Below, piece after piece: positions 17,025 to 18,573 of a DNA stretch of 37,298 bases; within the stretch, counting starts at the first letter, position 1; each line of letters starts with the position of its first letter. The translations under genes were made by a program, and so were the position numbers. Source of the stretch: a virus; IMG/VR virus record IMGVR_UViG_3300032893_000174, positions 1 to 37,298 of that record. One strand, given 5' to 3'. Below the pieces are notes generated by a model. That model ran no database searches. It was given only the letters and a program-made list of their open reading frames with translations, and was not told where the DNA came from.

Positions 17025-17354
17025 ATGTCAATTACAACAACCGGCAATTTGGGACCATTGATTCTCCAGAGCTTAGCTCCGGCGCTACTCTATGTCCCAA
17101 CGCCAACAATGAACTATATTCTGGTATGCGACAAGGTGTCTATGCCAGTAAACGGGGGCACAACTTGCCGCTTTATGCGTCCAAGAGCTCTCGTACCACC
17201 AACTATCCAGTTGGGAAATTCCGGGATTGATCCTCCAGCCCAAGTGCCACAACGCGACATCATTGATGCGCAAATGGCATTCTTCGGTACAGGCTGTATC
17301 ATCAACGAACAGGTAATATTGCAGGATCAAGAGGGTAATTTAATAGCAGCGTAA
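17025..17354 (+). CDS. Major capsid protein, N-terminal part (N4-gp56 type), interrupted
   Basis: From ATG 17025 this frame encodes 109 residues: MSITTTGNLGPLILQSLAPA, then GGTTCRFMRPRALVPPTIQL and GTGCIINEQVILQDQEGN, before a stop. The T-T-T start, the R-x-R-P central segment and the E-Q-V-x-L-Q-D-Q strand fit the N-terminal third of N4-gp56-type capsid proteins. The protein stops where the family would continue into a conserved helix. That helix and the remaining two thirds are encoded about 600 bp downstream. The start has GGA 8 bases upstream, just after a 12-bp hairpin. I treat it as exon 1 of a split gene; a truncated or split protein is the alternative. Confidence 0.75.
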   Translation: MSITTTGNLGPLILQSLAPALLYVPTPTMNYILVCDKVSMPVNGGTTCRFMRPRALVPPTIQLGNSGIDPPAQVPQRDIIDAQMAFFGTGCIINEQVILQDQEGNLIAA

Positions 17355-17948
17355 GCTATAGATAAATATGGATGAATATGATAAAATTGGTTCCCAAAAC
17401 ATAGGTATTTATGGAATGGATACAATTTTTGATTTTAATAATAACTCTAGGATCTTTTATTTGGACTATAAGATCTGACATGAAAGGTTTTGAAAAAGAT
17501 TCAAAAGAATGGCGAGAACGTTATGATCGAGAAACTAAAGAATTTCGTGAAAGATGGGCTCAAGAGACTAAAGAATTTCATGGACGACTTATTGCGATAG
17601 AAGAAAGAAGAAACAAGTTCATATTTAAAGAATAACACGCCCTCTTAGCTTGTCTTAAATGGTGTTAGCGTGGGTGTCAGAACGTCTGGCAGTCGCGATG
17701 AGACAAGCCGAGGATGAAGATAATGTCCTCGATAAACCAACTCTAATTGACTTGGAAGCCCGACAGGGTGACAAGGGCGAAGGCTAATTAACTGCTCTTT
17801 TGTTTATTGGCTACGCTGAACGACTTAATGAGATGGCCCGAAAGGGATGCGAAAGTCTGAGCACGACATATGGAAAGAAAAGTCGTGAGGTTGGTCCGAA
17901 GAGGCTGACCCGCCTAATTGAAGTAGAATTGAATAACCTACATGGCTA
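17355..17948 (+). ncRNA. Insertion in the capsid gene: candidate intron with a folded RNA of about 300 nt (17636-17945)
   Basis: The part after the small internal gene is dense in stems: GCTTGTCT (17648-17655) with AGACAAGC (17701-17708), CGAGGA (17709-17714) with TCCTCG (17726-17731), a CCC-GAAA-GGG tetraloop hairpin (about 17837-17845), CACGAC (17862-17867) with GTCGTG (17882-17887), and AGGTT (17888-17892) enclosing GGTC/GACC and closing on AACCT (17935-17939). It is locally richer in G and C than its surroundings. Joining 17353-region sequence to about 17945-17948 restores an open capsid frame. I found neither the conserved group I P7 sequence nor a group II domain V, so the class is unassigned. 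The exact boundaries are uncertain by a few bases. Confidence 0.6.
17411..17635 (+). CDS. Small membrane-anchored coiled-coil protein inside the capsid-gene insertion (74 aa)
   Basis: The product starts MEWIQFLILIITLGSFIWTI, one transmembrane helix, and continues as a charged coiled coil with an imperfect internal repeat (YDRETKEFRERWAQETKEFH), ending RLIAIEERRNKF. It has no homing-endonuclease or maturase motif. Proteins with an N-terminal membrane helix and a terminal 'F-H-G-R-L-x-x-I-E-E-R' remind me of small proteins common in amoeba-associated bacteria, from memory only. AGG lies 7 bases before the ATG. It occupies the 5' part of the insertion, before the folded RNA. It could be a passenger gene of a mobile intron. 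Confidence 0.55.
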   Translation: MEWIQFLILIITLGSFIWTIRSDMKGFEKDSKEWRERYDRETKEFRERWAQETKEFHGRLIAIEERRNKFIFKE

Positions 17949-17985
17949 TTCAACTTAGCTTAAATAAGGTCACAAAAGTAACAGA

Positions 17986-18573
17986 ATGCTTATCCTCCGT
18001 GACTACATCGTATCTGCGGCATCGCAGATCTATGCAGCTGGTGGAGCAAACGGCGACAACCCAACCAACTTAGGAGTCTCTGACTTCTCAGTTGTTGCGG
18101 CTACTCTCGATACAAATAATGCTTATAAATTTATGAGCGGTATCGAAGGAGATCTGAAATTTGGTACAGGTCCAGTCCGTTCAGCATATTTCATGCTGTC
18201 CTCTACTGAACTGCAACCTGATTTCGATGCTCTAACAGGTAGCGGTTTCTTGGCTCAATGGAACTATCCACAGCCAAAAGACGCTCTTCCATCTGAGTAT
18301 GGTTCTGTATTTAACATCAGAATCTTAGTCAGCTCTGAAGCGCCAGTTGCACGTGGAGCATCTAAAAATGCTCGAGATGTTTACTACAATACTGTTGTAG
18401 GTAAACAAGCGGTCACTCACATCAATCAGGACGGCTATAGCATGAATCTGATTTATCGTGATCCATATTATTCTGGAATGCTCGCACAAAATGCGACTTT
18501 AGCGGTTAAATTCGCTCAAGCGCAAGCGATCACTCAAGATACCGCCATCAGAAACCTACTTTGTACGTTGTAA
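17986..18573 (+). CDS. Major capsid protein, C-terminal part (N4-gp56 type)
   Basis: This frame encodes 195 residues beginning MLILRDYIVSAASQIYAAGG and contains FGTGPVRSAYFMLSSTELQP, YGSVFNIRILVSSEAPVARG and INQDGYSMNLIYRDPYYSGM, the conserved second half of N4-gp56-type capsid proteins. There is no ribosome site before the first ATG, so it is unlikely to start here. The bases just upstream encode a helix ending K-V-T-K-V-T-E in the neighbouring frame, and family members usually have T-E-D/x-x-L-x-R-D here. The T-E part and MLILRD are offset by one base. With exon 1 the total would be near 320 residues, normal for the family. Confidence 0.8.
   Translation: MLILRDYIVSAASQIYAAGGANGDNPTNLGVSDFSVVAATLDTNNAYKFMSGIEGDLKFGTGPVRSAYFMLSSTELQPDFDALTGSGFLAQWNYPQPKDALPSEYGSVFNIRILVSSEAPVARGASKNARDVYYNTVVGKQAVTHINQDGYSMNLIYRDPYYSGMLAQNATLAVKFAQAQAITQDTAIRNLLCTL

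Follow-up and report, generated by a model that had tools for sequence, protein, structure and literature searches.

Core-less introns in phage capsid genes that may be spliced by the core of the next group I intron

Structure of the interrupted capsid gene

The window analyzed here is the whole of a 37,298-nt viral record (IMG/VR IMGVR_UViG_3300032893_000174), and all of its features described below lie on the + strand. Spliced alignment to uninterrupted relatives shows that a capsid gene at 17025–18573 is broken by two insertions, I1 (325 nt) and I2 (273 nt), with a 54-nt micro-exon between them. Exon 1 (17025–17336) encodes residues 1–104, ending in QDQEG, and is followed by I1 (17337–17661), the micro-exon (17662–17715), I2 (17716–17988), and exon 3 (17989–18573), which encodes residues 123–316 and the stop codon. 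The joints are 17336/17662 and 17715/17989. The exon limits were determined using a protein-to-DNA spliced aligner, which was run with a minimum intron of 24 nt across the relatives; these were retrieved with the second half of the capsid protein as the query. The micro-exon, GTG TTA GCG TGG GTG TCA GAA CGT CTG GCA GTC GCG ATG AGA CAA GCC GAG GAT, encodes the 18 residues VLAWVSERLAVAMRQAED, a peptide that the inspected intact relatives, whose capsid gene has about 319 codons, share with no more than one change. The joined exons give a protein of 316 residues, which is identical to that of the uninterrupted relative L002 at 291 of 319 aligned positions and matches the profile of PHROG 1357, a major head protein; a search of 50,697 phage records with the capsid protein gave no match.

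The initial annotation had described this locus as a capsid gene split by one element that is removed from the RNA. Its reading of the two frames as successive parts of one capsid protein agrees with the PHROG 1357 match, and the non-capsid sequence between them, which carries a dense RNA fold, does require removal, since 69 of 127 distinct capsid genes are uninterrupted; these 69 genes also speak against the possibility, raised at the same time, that the two frames are independent genes in relatives. The idea of an RNA-removed element is supported in this respect, but there are two insertions instead of one, and the single intron proposed had included the 54-nt exon. The joint proposed from 17346–17353 to 17945–17948 was misplaced, as it would drop 18 conserved residues and the frame of the second ORF is closed by stops at 17956 and 17965; the single-intron reading with a joint at 17945 is ruled out by the uninterrupted relatives. 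The ATG at 17986, from which a separate second frame would start, is the last three nucleotides of I2.

The two introns and the helix between them

I2 contains a group I core at 17732–17861, which was detected by a covariance model with 92 bits (E 6e-18) and is the sole core found in the 37-kb record. The model, which also detects cores in the larger insertions of relatives, was built for cores, and the underlying alignment covers 22 larger, core-bearing insertions over 170 columns. In these 22 introns, P3 (pseudoknotted), P4, P5, P6, P7, and P8 are paired in 97.7% of the pair cells, both sides have changed in 20 of 28 core pairs, including all seven P3 pairs, and the covariation score of the cores was reached by none of 500 shuffles. 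As placed by the alignment and the model, the helices of I2 are P3 (17737–17743/17830–17836), P4 (17751–17754/17772–17775), P5 (17758–17761/17766–17769), P6 (17776–17779/17814–17817), P7 (17822–17826/17853–17857), and P8 (17837–17846), so that the P3/P7 pseudoknot is present together with P4–P6 and P8. The internal guide GUCCUCG (17725–17731) pairs with CGAGGAU (17709–17715) as P1, with a U.G pair at the 5' site, and the 3'-terminal nucleotide of the intron is G. By its tested structure, I2 is a group I intron, and it would be self-splicing. The P7 that had earlier been reported missing is formed by GACUU and AAGUC inside the full core; the assignment to an unknown class or an undescribed ribozyme therefore fails for I2, and for I1 it is changed to an insertion that has group I splice-site signals and no ribozyme.

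Among the Rfam families of group I and group II introns and of large phage RNAs, none gave a relevant match in the window even at E 5: RF00028 gave no score for the I2 core, and none of the group II families scored. A search of the relative L054 at E 1 returned nothing, and among 20 relatives RF00028 had one match only, the intron at residue 91 of L056. That RF00028 misses I2-type cores yet matches this intron indicates a gap of that model.

In I1, the exon strand of P1, AAGAGGGU (17329–17336), ends in U and forms 8 bp with the internal guide GCCCUCUU (17639–17646), with U.G at the site. The guide is preceded by UAACAC (17633–17638), which pairs as P10 with the GUGUUA that opens the micro-exon. 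UAACAC-GCCCUCUU, near the 3' end of I1, thus has a 14-nt complementarity to the ligated exons AAGAGGGU|GUGUUA, in which a G faces the U of the 5' site; this match was reached by none of 2000 shuffles, and the guide helix is present in the minimum free-energy fold. Judged from this complementarity, UAACAC-GCCCUCUU is the P10+P1 guide of I1. The covariance model found no match to the catalytic core P3–P8 in I1 or in the core-less introns of relatives. Since I1 shows the signals of a group I intron (a U preceding the 5' site, a P1/P10 guide, and a G at the end) and lacks a core, it is described here as a core-less group I-type, or mini, intron and not as an autonomous group I intron. The loop of its P1 holds an ORF of 74 aa (17411–17635) with a hydrophobic N-terminus and a charged helix, which weakly resembles a lipoprotein family of PHROG (E 0.006); at this position, relatives have a LAGLIDADG endonuclease.

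The tail of I1, from the guide to the terminal G, is complementary to the end of the micro-exon. The strand GCUUGUCUUA (17648–17657) forms 10 bp with UGAGACAAGC (17699–17708), which is coding sequence and directly abuts the P1 of I2. This helix, termed Px, was found in all 35 distinct units of a core-less intron and its neighbor, with the exon strand mostly 0–1 nt before the P1 strand of the neighbor. Its mean score was 18.5, compared with 10.2 (sd 0.45) when the tails were swapped. Compensating changes occur between GCUUGUCUUA/UGAGACAAGC in the window and GCUUGGUGUG/UGCGCCAAGC in the pair at residues 105–123, and the pair at residues 105–117 has the compensatory variants GGCUAGA/UCUAGCC and GGCGAGA/UCUCGCC. 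In the minimum free-energy fold of the window, P1(I1), Px, and P1(I2) are three consecutive helices (z −3.7), and the Px/P1(I2) part reaches z −5.6. Energy folding of six units from relatives gave the three consecutive helices in four; in the unit at residue 105 of L010 they lie within an extra helix, and the unit at residue 105 of L099 folds otherwise around P1(I1).

Paired introns and read-through tails in relatives

Among the 127 distinct capsid genes, 58 are interrupted, with 122 insertions in total: 85 of about 200–1270 nt and 37 without a core. All 122 introns of the 58 genes are preceded by U at the 5' site and have G as their last nucleotide; when these letters serve only as tie-breakers in the alignment, no junction in the 58 genes moves. 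The core-less introns are mostly 30–79 nt long, the smallest (30–36 nt) being too short for any core, and the others represent this element with an ORF added (325 nt in the window and 946–978 nt with a LAGLIDADG-type gene in the rest). The guide match of distinct core-less introns is 13.0 bp on average, compared with 4.5 (sd 0.3) when the guides are swapped between sites. Each of the 37 core-less introns lies immediately upstream of a core-bearing intron, with an exon of 24–96 nt between the two, at nine site pairs. A core was present in all 24 searched records with core-less introns, and the window has exactly one.

Further cores recovered from these phages outside the capsid gene pointed to the portal gene. 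A doublet of a core-less and a core-bearing intron was found in five of six distinct portal genes with clear introns, where the splice signals were inspected by eye, and added four new site pairs at residues 8–26, 23–42, 33–45, and 37–51. The loci with these doublets are L269, L271–L274 (start of the portal gene), and L200. The thirteen site pairs in two genes, as read from the sequences, argue for repeated origin or strong maintenance.

Translation of the unspliced gene runs into I1 and ends after NLIAA (17337–17354), a C-terminus that is a close variant of the -LAA of ssrA tags, namely -IAA. Across the capsid genes, the unspliced translation ends in AA, VA, or similar for 36 of the 37 core-less introns, the exception being the one at residue 105 of L010, and several of the tails, such as KEEYLLAA, LENYLLAA, NEYALLAAA, and DYARLAA, resemble the ssrA tag. 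Core-bearing introns behind a core-less one have the tag in only 4 of 37 cases (Fisher 3e-11; the genes are related, so the p-value overstates their independence). For solitary core-bearing introns, it is present in 33 of 36 beyond residue 60 (absent at residue 67 of L010, residue 121 of L096, and residue 78 of L166) and in none of 12 before residue 60. The background of AA-stop is 0.22% at random ORF ends of these loci, and the other frames gave 0 of 162. Where the stop falls within the following exon, as in ten genes, the exon has TGC ATA A.. or TGC GTA A.., which are synonymous codons that create the A-stop in the shifted frame; such codons are used in 10 of 10 of these genes and in 3 of 107 others (p 3e-12, again overstated because the genes are related).

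The occurrence of the tag only where the fragment would be long would fit a protection from poisonous capsid fragments. The either/or pattern in the capsid genes could also be taken to mean that core-less introns exist to supply the tag; this was rejected as a general purpose, since the core-less introns of the portal gene are untagged. No portal intron before residue 52 has a tag, and the core-less ones lie before residue 40, which agrees with the long-fragment rule and indicates that core-less introns are not only tag carriers. Within the open-licence papers covered by the literature search, nothing relevant to intron-encoded degradation tags was found.

Other features of the relatives were recorded as well. 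The core-less introns at residue 105 of L110, L116, L122, L123, L125, and L173 carry an ORF of a LAGLIDADG-type endonuclease, which was confirmed with Pfam in two, and this suggests that an intron without a ribozyme may still be mobile. Core-bearing introns have ORFs with LAGLIDADG-like motifs on the antisense strand (residue 146 of L180 and L181, residue 99 of L023, residue 97 of L164, residue 182 of L233, and residue 164 of L247), and many other introns contain unrelated small ORFs, for example, DUF6321 at residue 123 of L010. A conserved +1/−1 frameshift pair, GATG GCGCAAATGG ... ATCAAT AGCAGG, lies inside a capsid exon between the introns at residues 70 and 105 of L116, L123, L125, and L178, and L173 has a related shift at the first site only; recoding, a further tiny element, or decay could each account for the pair. 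The capsid relatives occur in MAG bins of Bacteroidales, Chlamydiia, Pseudomonadota, Patescibacteria, Peregrinibacteria, and Nitrospiraceae. The close relatives L178–L183 are binned in MAGs of six unrelated groups and are probably misbinned phage contigs; because of this spread of the bins, no host was called.

Proposed splicing by a shared core

Taking these features of the sequences together, we consider it probable that I2 is self-splicing, that I1 is a core-less satellite removed by the core of I2 via Px, and that a retained I1 gives rise to a tagged fragment for a protease. I2 would leave by its own core. I1, a satellite with its own P1/P10 guide and terminal G, would be held by Px, in which the tail of I1 and the end of the micro-exon would bring the P1 of I1 beside that of I2. 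The core of I2 could then dock either P1, and both introns would be excised with the micro-exon kept. The strand order P1(I1), Px, P1(I2), and core would correspond to P1, P2, P2.1, and P3 of larger group I introns, so that, with Px in the role of a P2-like spacer, the core of I2 could dock the P1 of I1, and a distal P1 is usable by a group I core (PMC10136302). Since the exit of I1 would need an active I2 core, an unspliced transcript would retain I1, ribosomes would end at the stop in I1, and the resulting capsid fragment with its ssrA-like -IAA tail should be destroyed by host ClpXP-type proteases. We infer here the occurrence of splicing, the action of the I2 core on I1, the order of both events, and the reading of the tag by the protease. 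The motif GUAACA, which core-bearing introns commonly have ahead of the 3' site, is missing in the core-less ones, including I1, and this counts against the proposal as regards the placement of their terminal G in the G site. Extended to the relatives, it is fairly likely that in many phages the core of the next intron splices core-less group I introns, down to 30 nt, via a partly coding tether, and that a tail mimicking ssrA dooms unspliced capsid fragments.

I1 could also be removed by group I chemistry with a core acting in trans, supplied by freed I2 or by a host or phage ribozyme or protein factor, instead of by I2 in cis. The guide of I1 requires just some group I core, freed I2 could remain on the joined exons through P1/P10, and an engineered group I ribozyme removes introns of 64–100 nt in trans (PMC4094466). 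However, the strict adjacency to a downstream core in 37 of 37 cases and the abutment of Px on the P1 of the neighbor favor action within the same transcript, and removal in trans is regarded as unlikely.

A quite different possibility is that I1 stays in the RNA and is bypassed by ribosomes, as in T4 gene 60 or the mitochondrial byp elements. The smallest core-less introns, with 30–36 nt, have the size of bypassed gaps, a stop follows shortly past the putative take-off codon, and that codon is held in a hairpin. Bypass was nevertheless rejected as very improbable because the take-off and landing triplets match in none of the 37 cases; moreover, the guide can pair with the exon sequence on either side of the joint, the site has U.G and the intron ends in G, Px falls within the coding region beyond any landing site, and some core-less introns have 325–978 nt with ORFs.

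I1 and I2 might instead leave as one piece if the core of I2 used the 5' site of I1 and the micro-exon was skipped. Two group I introns with skipping of the exon between them are known from Twort orf142 and Coxiella 23S (PMC10136302), and the frame would be kept in the window. This reading, to which we give very little weight, was rejected because of other site pairs: in the 89–97, 92–123, 105–117, and portal 23–42 pairs, loss of the micro-exon would shift the frame, so both introns must be removed separately there. The micro-exon also encodes conserved capsid residues, and for its inclusion I1 is equipped with a P10 and a terminal G. Finally, that the gene is dead or misassembled, or that the two frames are two proteins, is hardly credible even for a metagenomic contig, as 58 of 127 separately assembled relatives are interrupted alike, with conserved exons and signals.

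If the splicing of I1 by the core of I2 is true, it would provide a simple model of how introns come to rely on common splicing machinery. With the ssrA-like tail encoded in the intron, the phage would have an inbuilt protection from poisonous half-capsids that ties splicing to proteolysis. Introns of 30 nt without a core are missed by core-based intron searches and by gene callers.

I2 resembles the known phage group I introns of T4 td/nrdB, Twort orf142, and Bastillevirinae (PMC11878797) in its P1 with U.G, its P3–P8 core, its terminal G, and an optional endonuclease ORF; unlike in those, many capsid and portal sites are occupied here, RF00028 is silent, and a core-less partner and a tail resembling ssrA are present. 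A short exon also separates the tandem group I introns of Twort orf142 and Coxiella 23S, and the Physarum IC1 intron, with its distal 5' site, likewise shows that a distal P1 is usable by a group I core (PMC10136302); in the tandem introns, however, both members have cores or the exon is skipped, whereas here one is core-less and the exon must stay. The engineered group I spliceozyme (PMC4094466) has a core that removes a separate short intron and joins the exons, but it acts in trans with the guide on the ribozyme, whereas the present system is natural, with the guide on the small intron. The bypass elements of T4 gene 60 and byp are also short in-gene insertions missing from the protein; here, however, there are no matching take-off and landing codons, and a group I guide is present. 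The tag added by tmRNA (ssrA) is appended in trans and has a -LAA-type C-terminus. The tails described here share such C-termini, several in an acidic-Tyr context (KEEYLLAA, LENYLLAA, and NEYALLAAA), but are encoded in the reading frame of the intron. The group III introns of euglenid plastids are small introns derived from group II that keep the splice signals and have lost the ribozyme core, as the core-less introns have, although the latter are of group I type. We know of no earlier natural self-splicing ribozyme that serves a separate core-less intron; the arrangement of I1 and I2, if true, would be the first such natural case and a group I counterpart of the group III introns.
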